From Amycolatopsis albispora (GTDB lineage Bacteria > Actinomycetota > Actinomycetes > Mycobacteriales > Pseudonocardiaceae), in the NCBI RefSeq assembly GCF_003312875.1, contig NZ_CP015163.1:7812001-7876000 (forward strand): DNA of 64,000 nt, in the 5' to 3' direction. Positions 47,606 to 52,507 of this stretch are shown piece by piece. Position 1 is the first letter of the stretch. Each line of letters begins with the position of its first letter. A program made the position numbers and the translations under genes. The notes beneath the pieces are model-generated. The model did no database searches and was not told the DNA's origin. It worked only from the letters and a program-made list of their open reading frames with translations.

Positions 47606-48289
47606 ATGGCGCTCGCCGCGGTCGTGTTCGACCTGGACGGAGTCCTGGTCGAGAGTGAACACCTCTGGGAGGAGAACTGGGTGGCCTACGCCGCCCGGCA
47701 CGGGGTCGGCTGGACCGCCGAGGACACCTCGACGGTCCAGGGCATGAGCGCGCCCGAGTGGGCCGCCTACCTGGCCGAGCGCAGCGGCACCACCGAATCG
47801 GTCGAGCGGGTCGAGCGCGCCGTGGTGGACGGCATGATCGCCGCGATCGAGGGCGGTGAGGCGCCGCTGCTGCCCGGCGCGGGCGAGATGGTCCGCGAGG
47901 TGAGCGCCAGGGTGCCGGTCGCGCTGGCCTCCTCGGCCGCCCGCCGGGTGATCGACGCGGTGCTGGACACGCACGGCCTCACCGGGGAGTTCACCGCCAC
48001 GGTCAGCAGCGCCGAGGTGCCGAAGGGCAAGCCGAGCCCGGACGTCTATCTCGAGGCGGCCGCCCGGCTCGGCCGGTCCGGTGCGGAATGCCTGGGCGTG
48101 GAGGACTCGAGCAACGGCATCCGCGCGGCCGCCGCGGCCGGGCTGACCGTGATCGCGCTGCCGAACCCGACCTATCCGCCGAAGCCCGACGCGCTGGAGC
48201 TGGCCAGCGCGGTGGCCGAGGACAACCACGACGTGCGGCGCAAGCTGCTCGCCTACCTGTCCGGTGAGCTGGTGGGGGAGCGGGCATGA
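47606..48289 (+). CDS. HAD-superfamily sugar phosphatase / mutase-like
   Basis: The 227-residue protein has HAD motif I VVFDLDGVLVESE (Asp9, Asp11), motif II VALASSAARR, a lysine at PKGKPSPDVY and the acidic motif GVEDSSNG. The cap and length fit the beta-phosphoglucomutase/phosphatase subgroup. AAAGGGG precedes the ATG. It overlaps the DhaKL gene by four bases and starts the second catabolic operon. Confidence 0.87.
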   Translation: MALAAVVFDLDGVLVESEHLWEENWVAYAARHGVGWTAEDTSTVQGMSAPEWAAYLAERSGTTESVERVERAVVDGMIAAIEGGEAPLLPGAGEMVREVSARVPVALASSAARRVIDAVLDTHGLTGEFTATVSSAEVPKGKPSPDVYLEAAARLGRSGAECLGVEDSSNGIRAAAAAGLTVIALPNPTYPPKPDALELASAVAEDNHDVRRKLLAYLSGELVGERA

Positions 48290-49977
48290 CCACGCTGGGC
48301 ACGGCGAGCACCTTCAAGCGCGACTGGGTGGACGGGTTCGTCACCGCGTACGGCCGGACCGTGCGCAAGGTCCCCGGTGCCTACGGGGTGGTCGGCAGGC
48401 AGGTGCCGCGGCCGGGCAAGGTGGCCGTGGTGATCGGCGGCGGCTGCGGGCACTACCCGGCCTTCGCCGGGCTGGTCGGCCCTGGCCTGGCCGACGGGGC
48501 CGTGGTCGGTGACGTGTTCACCAGCCCCAGCGCCGAGCAGGTGTACCGCACCGCACGCGCGGCCGATGGCGGTGCCGGCGTGCTTTTCGGTTACGGCAAC
48601 TACCAGGGCGACGTACTGCACTTCGGGCTGGCCGCGCGGCGGCTGGCGGCCGAGGGCATCGAGAGCCGCACCATCCTGGTCACCGACGACATCGCCAGCG
48701 GCCCCGCCGACAACGTGGACCGCCGGCGGGGCGTGGCGGGCGACTTCCTGGTGTTCAAGATCGCCGGCGCGGCCGCCGAACGCGGTGACGACCTGGCCGG
48801 GGTGCACGCGGCGGCGGTGAAGGCGAACGCCGCCACCCGCACCTTCGGGGTGGCTTTCGGGGGCTGCACGCTGCCCGGCGCCGCCGAGCCGCTGTTCACC
48901 GTGGACGAGCGGAAAATGGAGCTGGGCCTCGGCATCCACGGTGAGCCGGGGGTGCGCACGGTGGGCAGGCTGAGCGCGCGGGACCTGGCCGACGAGCTGG
49001 TGTCGGGCCTGCTGCCGGAACTGCCGCCGGGCAGGCGGGTGGTGGCGCTGGTCAACGGGCTGGGCCGGACCAAGTACGAGGAGATGTTCGTCGCCTACAC
49101 GCGGGTGCACGAGCGGCTCGCCGAAGCCGGGCTCGAGGTGGTCGACACCCAGGTCGGCGAGTTTGTCACCTCGCTGGACATGGCCGGGGTGTCGCTGTCG
49201 CTGATGGTGCTCGACGACGAACTGGCCGAGCTGTACGCCGCACCGTGTGACACGCCGGGATACCGCAGTACCGGGGCGGAACTGGCCACCGTGCCGCTGG
49301 AGTCCACAGTGGACGAGACGCTGGCGCGGCCGGACGGCGCGGCGGGCGAGCGGCTGGTGGACCGGGTGCTCACCGCAGCGCTCGACGCCATCGAGGCGGC
49401 GGAGGACGAACTGGGCAGGCTCGACGCGGTCGCCGCGGACGGCGATCACGGCCTGGGCATGACCCGTGGCATGCGAGCCGCCGTGGCCGCCGCGCGCTCA
49501 CCGGAAGCCGGGGACACCCTGTCGGGCGGCTTGCTCGTCGCGGGCACCGCCTTCGCGGATGCCGCCGGTGGCGCCTCGGGCGCGCTCTACGGGGTACTTC
49601 TGGCCGAAACCGGCGCCGGTCTCCGGGGCGAGGTCACCGGCGAAACCCTCGCGAACGCGGTGGACAACGCGGTGCGCGCCTTTGTTGAACTGGGCAAGGC
49701 CGAGCCAGGCGACAAGACCATGCTCGACGCGATCCTGCCCTTCGCCGAGACACTCCGAGCACGCGCCGATGATGGCCCGGTGGCCGCCTGGGTCGCCGCC
49801 GCGCAGCGAGCCACCGAAGCCGCGCGGGCGACCGCGGACCTGGTGCCCGCCAAGGGCAGGGCGGCCCGCCTCGCCGAACGCAGCAAAGGCCACGCAGACC
49901 CGGGCGCGACTTCGTTCGCACTGCTCGTCACAGCCGTCGGCGAGGCCCTGTCAGCCAAAACGGCGGTCGGCGCATGA
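48286..49977 (+). CDS. Fused DhaK-DhaL ketose kinase (dihydroxyacetone/erythrulose type)
   Basis: The 563-residue protein joins a DhaK domain (about 1-330) and a DhaL domain (about 360-563), the ATP-dependent form. DhaK has GGGCGHYPAFAG and LGLGIHGEPG with His218, the residue that binds the ketone as a hemiaminal in the family. DhaL has ADGDHG with Asp385 and Asp387 for Mg-ADP. Beside an EryI-like isomerase the substrate could be erythrulose rather than dihydroxyacetone, as for related mycobacterial kinases; this is inference. Confidence 0.85.
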   Translation: MTTLGTASTFKRDWVDGFVTAYGRTVRKVPGAYGVVGRQVPRPGKVAVVIGGGCGHYPAFAGLVGPGLADGAVVGDVFTSPSAEQVYRTARAADGGAGVLFGYGNYQGDVLHFGLAARRLAAEGIESRTILVTDDIASGPADNVDRRRGVAGDFLVFKIAGAAAERGDDLAGVHAAAVKANAATRTFGVAFGGCTLPGAAEPLFTVDERKMELGLGIHGEPGVRTVGRLSARDLADELVSGLLPELPPGRRVVALVNGLGRTKYEEMFVAYTRVHERLAEAGLEVVDTQVGEFVTSLDMAGVSLSLMVLDDELAELYAAPCDTPGYRSTGAELATVPLESTVDETLARPDGAAGERLVDRVLTAALDAIEAAEDELGRLDAVAADGDHGLGMTRGMRAAVAAARSPEAGDTLSGGLLVAGTAFADAAGGASGALYGVLLAETGAGLRGEVTGETLANAVDNAVRAFVELGKAEPGDKTMLDAILPFAETLRARADDGPVAAWVAAAQRATEAARATADLVPAKGRAARLAERSKGHADPGATSFALLVTAVGEALSAKTAVGA

Positions 49978-50971
49978 CCCCCTCCACCGCCGCCCGGCTC
50001 CCCAAGCGAGGCCGCGTCCCCGGCCAGAAGGCCACCAGCGCAGGCCGGGGCCGAGCCGTAACTCCCAGTCGCAGCCACGCACCGGGCCGCGTCACCGACG
50101 CCCTGTCCGCCCGGCGAGGCGCTGTCTGCGAACTCGGTGGCAGGAGCATGACCCGCGCCGCCGCCGCTCGGCTCCCCAAGCGAGGCCGCGTCCCCGGCCA
50201 GGAAGCGACCGCCGCAAGCCGGGGCCGAGCCGTAACTCCCAGTCGCAGCCACGCACCGGGTCGCGTCACCGACGCCCTATCCACCCGGCGAGGCCTTGCC
50301 TTCGAACACGGTGGCAGGAGCATGACCCCCTCCACCGCAACCCGGCTCGCCGAGCGTGGCCGCGTCCCCGGCCAGAAGGCGACCAGCGCAGGCCGGGGCC
50401 GAGCCGTAACTCCCAGTCGCAACCACGCACCGGGCCGCGTCACCGACGCTCCATCCGCCCGGCGAGGCCTTGTCCGCGAACTCAGTGGCAGGAGCATGAC
50501 CCGCGCCGCCACCTGGCTCACCGAGCGTGGCCCAGCCGCCGGTCAGGAAGCGACCAGCAAGCGCCGAGGCCTTGTCAGCAAACACGGTGGCAGGAGCATG
50601 ACCTCCGCCACCGCCGCCCGGCTCACCAAGCGTGGCCGCGTCGCCGGTCAGGAGGCGACCAGCACAGGCCGAGCCCGAGCCGCGGCTTCAGGCCTTGTCC
50701 GCGAACTCGGCGGTAAGGGCCTGACCCCCGCCGCCACCGGAGTCAGGCTCGTCGAACGGGGCCCAGCCGCCGGTCAGGAGGCGACCAGCAAGCGCCAAGG
50801 CCGAGCCGCGGCTTCCAGCCGTGCACGGGCCCGCGTCACTGAATCTCTGTCCGTCGGGCGAGGCCTTGTCCGCCAACTCGGTGGCAAGGGCATGACACCC
50901 GCCACCACAGCCCGGCTCATCCCGTGCGGCCGCCGCACTGAAGCTCCGTCCGTCAGGAAAGTGGTGAAAGC
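49974..50971 (+). repeat. Imperfect tandem repeat array, 174-bp unit
   Basis: Units begin at 49974, 50148, 50322, 50496, 50598, 50721 and 50892, giving lengths 174, 174, 174, 102, 123 and 171, then a broken end of 80 bases. The first three units are close copies; later ones carry internal deletions. Most junctions contain GGTGGCAGGAGCATGACC or a close variant, which looks like a ribosome binding site plus start codon. The first six lengths are all multiples of three. Confidence 0.9.
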
Positions 50972-50975
50972 ATGA
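49974..50975 (+). CDS. Arginine-rich tandem-repeat protein between catabolic genes
   Basis: One 333-residue frame spans the whole space between the DhaKL and RpiB genes, overlapping the first by ATGA at 49974 and the second by ATGA at 50972. It consists of seven imperfect units; the first three are 58 residues each and begin MTPSTAARLPKRGRVPGQ, MTRAAAARLPKRGRVPGQ and MTPSTATRLAERGRVPGQ. Each unit is rich in Arg, Ala, Gly and Ser and ends (E/H)-(L/H)-x-G-(R/K)-(S/G). It is very basic and probably disordered. Whether protein is made, or translation merely couples the neighbours, is not known. Confidence 0.5.
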   Translation: MTPSTAARLPKRGRVPGQKATSAGRGRAVTPSRSHAPGRVTDALSARRGAVCELGGRSMTRAAAARLPKRGRVPGQEATAASRGRAVTPSRSHAPGRVTDALSTRRGLAFEHGGRSMTPSTATRLAERGRVPGQKATSAGRGRAVTPSRNHAPGRVTDAPSARRGLVRELSGRSMTRAATWLTERGPAAGQEATSKRRGLVSKHGGRSMTSATAARLTKRGRVAGQEATSTGRARAAASGLVRELGGKGLTPAATGVRLVERGPAAGQEATSKRQGRAAASSRARARVTESLSVGRGLVRQLGGKGMTPATTARLIPCGRRTEAPSVRKVVKA

Positions 50976-51433
50976 AGATCGTCGTCGCCGCCGATAATGC
51001 GGGGGCGGAGCTGAAGAACCAGCTGCGTGACCTGCTGCGTGCCGACGAGCGCGTGGCCGAGGTGACCGATCTCGGCGTGCCGGACGCCGCCGACGAGCGG
51101 CCGTATCCGGAGCTGGGGCTGGCCGCCGCCGAGGTGGTGGCCCGTGGTGAGGCCGATCGCGGGGTGCTGGTCTGCGGCACCGGGATCGGCGTGGCCATTT
51201 CGGCGAACAAGGTGCCGGGGGTGCGCGCCACCGTGGTGCACGACTCCTACTCCGCCGAGCGCTCGGTGAAGTCGAACGACTGCCAGATCATCACCTTCGG
51301 CGCCCGCGTGATCGGGCCCGAGCTGGCCAAGAAGATCGTCAGCGAATGGCTGGACCACCGCTTCGACCCGGAGTCGGCCAGTGCCGGCAAGGTCGCCCGC
51401 ATCACCGCCTACGAGCAGGCCCATTCGTCCTGA
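50972..51433 (+). CDS. RpiB-family sugar phosphate isomerase, EryI/DerI-like
   Basis: The 153-residue protein has the RpiB fold: KIVVAADNAGAELKNQL, then VLVCGTGIGVAISANKVPG with catalytic Cys68. The later segment SAERSVKSNDCQIITFGARV differs from classical RpiB (usually HNDANVLALG) and resembles isomerases of tetrose phosphates in erythritol-type pathways. The start ATG overlaps the end of the repeat frame. It probably turns a ketotetrose phosphate into erythrose 4-phosphate, a link to the pentose phosphate pathway. Confidence 0.83.
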   Translation: MKIVVAADNAGAELKNQLRDLLRADERVAEVTDLGVPDAADERPYPELGLAAAEVVARGEADRGVLVCGTGIGVAISANKVPGVRATVVHDSYSAERSVKSNDCQIITFGARVIGPELAKKIVSEWLDHRFDPESASAGKVARITAYEQAHSS

Positions 51434-51475
51434 CGGACAATTCCGTCGAGTTCCGGGTTCAAGGAGGAACCACAA

Positions 51476-52507
51476 GTGCGCATTCTCGCCGCAGGAGACG
51501 AGTTCGTCGGCACCGAGCTGCTCAAGCACGCGGTGCGCGCCGAGCTGGGCACCGAGCCGGTGTTCAGCGAGCTGTCGCTGCCCTGGCCGGTGGTGCCGTT
51601 CGGCCCGGTCGGCGGGGTGAACGAGGCCAGCGGCACCGAGGAGCAGGTGATCGAGGCGCTGGCGGGAGCCGAGGTCGCGGTCACCCAGATGGCGCCGTTC
51701 ACCAAAGCCGTGTTCGCCGCCGCGCCGCAGCTGAAAATGGTGTCGGTGAGCCGGGGCGGTCCGGTGAACGTGGACCTGCGCGCGGCCACCGAGGCCGGGG
51801 TCGCGGTGACCTACGCGCCCGGCCGCAACGCCGCGGCGGCGGCGGAGTTCGCCGTCGGCATGATCTTGGCCGCCATGCGGCGGCTGGCCACCTCCTCGGC
51901 CGAGCTGCTCGGCGGGACCTGGCGCGGGGACTACTACGCCTACGACAAGGCCGGGATCGAGCTGGAAGGCAGCACGGTCGGACTGGTCGGCTACGGCGCG
52001 ATCGGTTCGCGGGTGACGAAGGTGCTGGCCGCCTTCGGCGCCAGGGTGCTGGTGTCCGACCCGTACGCCGACCCGGCCGCGATCAAGGCCGACGGCGCGG
52101 CGCCGGTCGAGCTGGACGAACTGCTGCGGTCGAGCCAGGTGGTCAGCCTGCACGCCCGGCTCACCGAGGAGACCCACCACCTGATCAACGCGGAGAAGCT
52201 GGCCCTGCTGCCGCACGGCGCGGTGCTGGTCAACACCGCGCGCGGCGGGCTGCTGGACTACGCGCCGCTGCCCGAGCTGCTGCGTTCCGGGAAGCTGGGC
52301 GCGCTCGGGCTGGACGTGTACGACGTGGAGCCGCCGCCAGCCGACTGGGCGCTGCGGGACGCGCCGAATGTGATCGCCACCCCGCACCTGGCCGGAGCGA
52401 GCAGGCAGACCGCGGAGCGCGCGGCCCGCATCGTGGCGGCCGAGGTCGGCCGGTACGCCCGCGGGGAGCGCCTCGCGCACGTGGCCAATCCCGAAGTGCT
52501 CGGCTGA
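51476..52507 (+). CDS. D-2-hydroxyacid dehydrogenase
   Basis: The 343-residue NAD-dependent enzyme has GLVGYGAIGSRVTKVLAAFG (Rossmann loop, about 168-187), VNTARGGLLD with the substrate arginine, and TPHLAGAS with the catalytic histidine. AAGGAGG precedes GTG 51476. The N-terminal substrate region is unlike standard 3-phosphoglycerate dehydrogenases. In this operon it probably acts on a sugar acid or its phosphate. Confidence 0.85.
   Translation: MRILAAGDEFVGTELLKHAVRAELGTEPVFSELSLPWPVVPFGPVGGVNEASGTEEQVIEALAGAEVAVTQMAPFTKAVFAAAPQLKMVSVSRGGPVNVDLRAATEAGVAVTYAPGRNAAAAAEFAVGMILAAMRRLATSSAELLGGTWRGDYYAYDKAGIELEGSTVGLVGYGAIGSRVTKVLAAFGARVLVSDPYADPAAIKADGAAPVELDELLRSSQVVSLHARLTEETHHLINAEKLALLPHGAVLVNTARGGLLDYAPLPELLRSGKLGALGLDVYDVEPPPADWALRDAPNVIATPHLAGASRQTAERAARIVAAEVGRYARGERLAHVANPEVLG

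Follow-up and report, generated by a model that had tools for sequence, protein, structure and literature searches.

The overlap of a stop and a start codon in the sequence ATGA is the usual geometry of termination-reinitiation between neighbouring genes. Among repeated elements that use a similar geometry are the mycobacterial interspersed repetitive units (MIRUs), for which the 1997 work of Supply et al. is cited. The excerpted text of one account describes MIRUs as repeats whose open reading frame (ORF) is coupled to the neighbouring gene with a −4 spacing (PMC12548453). Excerpts of another give them a length of 40-100 bp and 41 places in the M. tuberculosis H37Rv chromosome, and report for the MIRU between rnc and fpg1 that relatives are without the insert and have a few base pairs at the site (PMC2734929). 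Bacterial satellites are arrays of long repeats, of which 23 are counted in Amycolatopsis mediterranei in the excerpts of a third source, where long triplet repeats are read as parts of genes that code for amino-acid repeats (PMC6749651).

The window, which is the whole stretch of 64,000 nucleotides analysed here, comes from the 9.12-Mb genome of Amycolatopsis albispora, assembled as one contig, and holds a tandem-repeat array between dhaKL and rpiB (Table 1). Pfam matches among the scanned proteins place a HAD hydrolase, the Dak1/Dak2 kinase, the RpiB-type isomerase, a 2-hydroxyacid dehydrogenase, an FGGY kinase and a class II aldolase on the plus strand, and a DeoR regulator and an MFS transporter further upstream on the minus strand. 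The gap between dhaL and rpiB, which amounts to 994 nt in this genome, is occupied by seven repeat units, as an earlier note on this DNA had claimed with exact boundaries and lengths, and the single 333-codon frame that it had described as overlapping both neighbours by ATGA was also borne out (ORF 49974-50975). The array was picked up by two programs, namely a repeat finder, which followed it to 50933, and TRF, which reported it as 49938-50558 and 50463-50673. Units 1-3 have a mutual identity of 86-92%, and the repeat homology begins 36 nt upstream of the array, within dhaL. With copies arranged head to tail and a unit within the range of tens to 200 bp, the array belongs among the minisatellites.

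Table 1. Features of the dhaKL-rpiB locus (positions are those of the window).
Feature	Position	Strand	Basis
dhaKL, fused dihydroxyacetone-kinase-type protein (Dak1 + Dak2), upstream of array	48286..49977	+	Pfam PF02733, PF02734
J0, dhaL 3′ end including the stop/start overlap, kin to the junction closing every unit	49938..49977	+	
ATGA, dhaKL stop over array-ORF start	49974..49977	+	
Array-spanning ORF, 333 codons + stop, Arg/Ala/Gly-rich	49974..50975	+	
Unit 1, 174 nt	49974..50147	+	repeat detection, junction positions
Unit 2, 174 nt	50148..50321	+	repeat detection, junction positions
Unit 3, 174 nt	50322..50495	+	repeat detection, junction positions
Unit 4, 102 nt, net −72	50496..50597	+	junction positions, unit alignment
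Unit 5, 123 nt, net −51	50598..50720	+	junction positions, unit alignment
Unit 6, 171 nt, net −3, CTG replaces ATG at start	50721..50891	+	junction positions, unit alignment
Unit 7, broken, 80 nt (2 mod 3)	50892..50971	+	length count to rpiB
AGGAAAGTGGTGA, likely Shine-Dalgarno region of rpiB, duplex −11.0 kcal/mol	50955..50967	+	
ATGA, array-ORF stop over rpiB start	50972..50975	+	
rpiB, ribose/galactose-isomerase-type protein, downstream of array	50972..51433	+	Pfam PF02502

Like the MIRUs of the excerpted accounts, the array consists of tandem repeats between operon genes, has an ORF which by its geometry would be coupled at −4 to the flanking genes (ATGA at 49974 and 50972), and sits between genes that in relatives adjoin without an insert (34/34 congener junctions). 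The view of the earlier note, which knew of no described element of this kind, has to be given up, because MIRUs with ORFs coupled at −4 are described in the excerpts of PMC12548453. The array is different from the MIRUs of these excerpts in the size of the repeat, which is 174 nt for the full unit and 102-171 nt for the shortened ones as against 40-100 bp, in being found at one place, with one weak 54-nt match elsewhere, instead of being dispersed, and in a unit whose terminus is related to that of the local upstream gene. The architecture is thus known from MIRUs, and it is in these three respects that the array departs from them. The degenerate long repeats arranged head to tail are similar to bacterial satellites and minisatellites as the excerpts of PMC6749651 present them; unlike the satellites presented there, the array has a triplet frame over six units, apparently neutral residues and no known protein. 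The ATGA at both array ends is also as in translational coupling by stop/start overlap in the excerpts of PMC12548453, but the coupled ORF here is a 1-kb repeat array that seems to have formed through duplication of the overlap. Among the papers listed by literature searches, no similar locus was recognised outside the MIRU papers, which is not proof of absence.

The dhaL/rpiB border was compared in relatives using genome collections with one genome per species. A search for RpiB across 80 genomes of the genus gave a match in 36, from which the A. albispora genome and G077 (49% identical, a weaker RpiB match that was its sole match) were set aside, which left 34. Six genomes, that of A. albispora among them, had weaker RpiB matches (49-61% identical), which did not enter the gap reading. 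The data showed that the gap was −4 to +2 nt in 29/29 congener loci and −1 to +1 nt in 5/5 further congeners (L211-L215). The absence of an insert at this junction from all 34 congeners read indicates that the array is particular to the A. albispora genome among those sampled. In the two genomes with the closest RpiB (97% identical) the ATGA junction holds no insert, and the three closest by this protein share the −4 overlap of A. albispora. At 25 loci of other genera a recognisable dhaL-rpiB pair was present in 15, with gaps of −1 to +4 nt, and no pair was found by motif in 10. Of the 12 named loci L058-L069 that were put through the pair motif, L058 alone gave a pair; it belongs to a record named Amycolatopsis suaedae, and over 160 nt its dhaL-rpiB border is by eye the same as that of the congener L011, which we take for A. 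suaedae. In all 49 relatives with a recognisable pair, dhaL and rpiB lie within 4 nt of each other.

DNA searches with the array and its unit were consistent with this distribution. When the array was searched in 79 congeners, with at most five first-look candidates scored per genome, the matches outside it were 27-84 nt only, and when a single unit was compared with 60 genomes, the matches outside the window did not exceed 48 nt. Elsewhere in the A. albispora genome, the search for the unit gave one weak 54-nt match (40 of 147 first-look candidates scored). The junction 21-mer, allowing at most three mismatches, occurs at five sites in the 9.12-Mb genome (0, 1, 1, 1 and 3 mismatches), all of them in the array, as compared to one match of the reversed pattern used as control; the remaining internal junction has CTG for ATG.

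The origin of the junctions was examined by comparing the 40 nt that end in ATGA (CTGA at unit 6), which comprise 36 nt of the unit and the overlap. The seven later junctions are identical to the dhaL end at 31, 30, 30, 32, 26, 30 and 23 of 40 positions, while unrelated ATGA sites of the window (n = 174; 181 ATGA in all) reached at most 20/40, which suggests that every junction is derived from a dhaL end. With the first junction, the dhaL ends of the two sisters gave 31, the same as the A. albispora dhaL end; with the next five junctions they gave 21-29, which is below the A. albispora value (26-32), and with the last junction 26, which is above it (23). The dhaL end in the sisters retains GGTGGTAGGAGTATGA, which is near to the GGTGGCAGGAGCATGA repeated in the array. 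Judged from these sequences, the array is a local minisatellite formed at the dhaL/rpiB coupling junction. Outside the 40-nt junction the similarity of the units to dhaL was weak, with a fraction of 0.009-0.257 of random windows (n = 1500) scoring equally. By these comparisons, the 40-nt junction alone is the securely dhaL-derived part of the unit, and the remaining ~134 nt are without a proven source.

Other sources of the unit were also considered. In a whole-unit test against dhaL, units 1-4 and 6 scored above all 1022 windows, and unit 5 was equalled by five of them. The possibility that the whole unit is a dhaL copy was rejected, since the similarity of the units to the DhaL tail was not significant at the protein level (equal shuffles 0.075-0.571); unit 7 scored under the shuffle mean against the dhaL tail of its own genome. 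A stretch of 47 nt in unit 5 (window 50641-50687) is 87% identical to another place in the A. albispora genome (G000:C1:4436866-4436911), and stretches of a coiled-coil gene in congeners are similar to the same 47 nt. The derivation of the core from such a coiled-coil gene (DivIVA-like by eye) was not retained; the likeness is probably due to chance, since an E value of 7e-7 is reached by an unrelated stretch in a non-congener.

The synonymous divergence (dS) from the two nearest sampled relatives was 0.31-0.39 for dhaKL and 0.20-0.27 for rpiB, and dS between units was 0.10-0.49, for the most part inside or under the 0.20-0.39 spanned by the two genes. By these values, most copies can post-date the split from the two nearest species. 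Unit 6 is separated from units 1 and 2 by a dS of 0.41 and 0.49, beyond the sister-species range, which could mean either that part of the array is older, with a loss in the sisters, or that the repeats change faster. Hence, some copies may predate the species split.

The earlier note had claimed that even the shortened units are multiples of three. This is correct for units 4-6 (102, 123 and 171 nt), while it does not apply to unit 7 (80 nt), whose length shifts the phase, so that at rpiB the array frame reads TGA and not ATG. A unit 7 of triplet length would put the rpiB ATG in phase with the array ORF, which would result in a fusion. Other frames across the array are also long and open (416 aa on the plus strand, 197 aa on the minus strand), and because of these frames and the GC-rich DNA, openness alone means little. 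When the 111 substitutions of units 1-6 were relocated at random, the mean was 0.90 stops and 40% of the trials had none, which makes the lack of stops uninformative (P = 0.40). A sequence of the same composition was open over 999 nt in a given frame in 0.5% of simulations, a value that ignores the fact that the units are copies.

The gaps between the copies were compared with those in other arrays of the A. albispora genome. Units 1-6 have four non-triplet gaps for 119 substitutions (0.034 per substitution), as compared to 79 for 532 (0.148) in 32 other intergenic arrays and 18 for 316 (0.057) in 14 in-gene arrays. The Poisson P of so few non-triplet gaps in the array was 1e-4, in a control that was post hoc, used home-made gene calls and left out unit 7, the length change of which is not a triplet. 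The four gaps fall into two pairs, with sums of 69 and 51 nt, and taking each pair as one event is our own reading. The intergenic arrays are heterogeneous, with 7/32 having no non-triplet gap; one of this class (L174) was removed for the per-substitution rates as an apparent acidic coding repeat, and was kept for the copy-step counts. TRF rows overlapping a better row were dropped, and two "mixed" arrays were not in the comparison. A 120/360-bp array at a tile edge (L134:1-841; G000:C1:3278001-3278841), which by eye resembles the gene of a tandem helical-repeat protein, was counted as intergenic, because the gene caller made no call there. Length changed in 44/76 copy-to-copy steps of the intergenic arrays, by a triplet in 6/44, four of these six from L174, and in 1/31 steps of the in-gene arrays. 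The length changes of units 4, 5 and 6 are −72, −51 and −3, for which the automatic alignment gave two steps, −72 and −54. When unit 7 is counted, 3/4 changes are triplets, which has a P of 0.11 if one in three is a triplet and of 0.009 if the rate is taken from the other intergenic arrays. These counts provide moderate evidence that the frame was under selection while the residues were not.

The earlier note had proposed calculating dN/dS between the units and searching for the unit and its translation. The ratio was about 1 (0.62-1.46 for 15 unit pairs), and the searches gave neither a homologue nor dispersed copies. Variable columns are spread over codon positions 1, 2 and 3 as 24, 20 and 23 of 56. 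The GC content per codon position is 0.72/0.73/0.75 in the array, as against 0.71-0.77, 0.47-0.54 and 0.90-0.95 in five neighbouring genes, and the codon score of the array ORF is −70.9, i.e., −0.21 per codon, as compared to +0.30 for dhaKL and +0.38 for rpiB. Neither the purifying selection nor the codon signature of a coding repeat was found. On the other hand, the 14 arrays inside predicted genes have a pooled pN/pS of 0.76 with values that vary widely, which means that coding is not excluded by a high ratio on its own; the ratio for units 1-3 was 1.19 in the ORF frame and 0.52 and 0.95 in the other two, which suggests that such ratios are noisy here. The array ORF had no Pfam match, and no protein homologue was returned from the collection searched, which also did not return the window's own ORF, so that such ORFs are perhaps not predicted there. 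In these measures the array residues look neutral.

The strength of ribosome binding was estimated as the energy of the duplex with the 16S end. The duplex of the rpiB Shine-Dalgarno region in the two sisters was −11.3 kcal/mol, similar to that in A. albispora (Table 1), while the values at the seven array starts were −6.2 to −6.6 kcal/mol (−6.2 at the first array ATG, −6.6 at the repeated junction). In the repeated junction of units 2-5 one base separates AGGAG from ATG. The suggestion in the earlier note that a ribosome binding site plus start is repeated along the array is therefore doubtful, because of this one-base distance and because the rpiB site is stronger and better placed. The FGGY kinase gene of the operon (−4.0 kcal/mol) and rpiB of one congener (L011, −6.6 kcal/mol) also have weak duplexes, which means that duplex strength alone is not decisive. 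The comparison of the array duplexes with that of rpiB suggests that strong internal starts are unlikely, and that rpiB is perhaps translated both through coupling and from its own site. No Rfam match was found in 49400-51500 at E up to 1, none of five stretches folded better than its shuffles (z from −0.63 to 1.04), and a simple consensus scan of 49800-51100 gave no promoter or terminator.

The best explanation, which on balance we consider probable, is that the array is a lineage-specific minisatellite that arose by tandem duplication at the dhaL/rpiB overlap, and that its frame was kept for translation from dhaL to rpiB. Ribosomes ending dhaKL at TGA 49977 would restart at the overlapping ATG 49974, read the 333-codon spacer, stop at TGA 50975 and restart at the rpiB ATG 50972, a start which would also be served by its own Shine-Dalgarno region. 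Frameshifts would have been largely kept out of the spacer because rpiB would be weakened by a kilobase in the operon that is untranslated or out of phase, while the amino acids of the spacer would be immaterial. The truncation of unit 7 could be the change that gave a terminal stop in place of an in-frame RpiB fusion. The translational relay considered in the earlier note is compatible with the ATGA kept at both ends and with the few frame-shifting gaps, although the repeated start signals that belonged to it are doubtful. The further proposal, that this is DNA translated for translation alone, in which the frame of a degenerate minisatellite is kept and its amino acids drift freely, is a tentative one. 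It is also possible, although short of probable, that an array of the same origin is a neutral, unselected spacer, open by luck and GC-rich composition, with RpiB made from its own site. This would agree with the probability of a stop-free frame, the flat GC by codon position, the negative codon score, the rpiB Shine-Dalgarno region being as strong as in the sisters (−11.0 versus −11.3 kcal/mol), and the plentiful minisatellites of the genome, while it does not account for a rate of non-triplet gaps per substitution that is about one fourth of that in the other intergenic arrays, or for the triplet change of each of units 4-6 where 6/44 changes in intergenic arrays are triplets. Of the two, we somewhat favour the spacer that is translated over the one that is wholly neutral.

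The two other readings start from the product of the array or from its arrival from elsewhere. The single long ORF with coupled start and stop, the 56 Arg and 12 Lys among its 333 residues and a calculated pI of 12.00, which we take to be the ceiling of the calculator, are what a strongly basic repeat protein, as envisaged in the earlier note, would show. That such a protein is functional is nevertheless unlikely, in view of the dN/dS of about 1 with changes flat over codon positions, the flat GC, the negative codon score, the lack of a protein relative or Pfam match in the searches described above, and the failure to find the array in 79 congeners (at most five first-look candidates per genome scored); as an explanation of the ORF we regard it as very improbable. 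The insertion of a mobile MIRU-like element at the ATGA, followed by amplification, would explain both the architecture, which is as described for MIRUs in the excerpts of PMC12548453, and a unit core that is not clearly dhaL-derived. This reading we consider improbable, because no copy was found elsewhere in the genome save the weak 54-nt match (40 of 147 candidates scored), because congeners and other relatives have short matches only, and because the unit end resembles the local dhaL end. If the relay from dhaL to rpiB is true, nature has made an experiment on translational coupling at this locus, with a kilobase between genes that lie within 4 nt of each other in the 49 relatives with a recognisable pair, across which the frame and not the sequence seems to have been kept. 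It would also represent a route for a new open frame in an operon that is already being translated. By duplicating a stop/start overlap, operons could then grow spacers, and raw coding frames for new genes, with coupling retained. If the relay is false, the array is one more decaying minisatellite in a genome with many.

Minisatellites are plentiful in the A. albispora genome. A sample of 2.46 Mb, made up of 120 stretches and the window, contained 42 merged tandem arrays with a period of at least 40 nt, including the one at dhaL/rpiB, and 23 of the 42 did not overlap a gene predicted by a simple home-made caller. In one array of the genome (G000:C1:636358-636849; L099:6358-6849) a gene end including the stop is repeated 2.9 times in 168-bp units of 97% identity; the gene is regulator-like (TetR-like by eye), and a plus-strand gene lies directly downstream. 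This array is a young parallel in the same genome, and gene-end duplication is not confined to the dhaL/rpiB border. In other species (L022, L063) the C-termini of DhaL contain small in-frame repeats of the TPASR and ETR types, which suggests that the dhaL end tolerates expansion elsewhere too.
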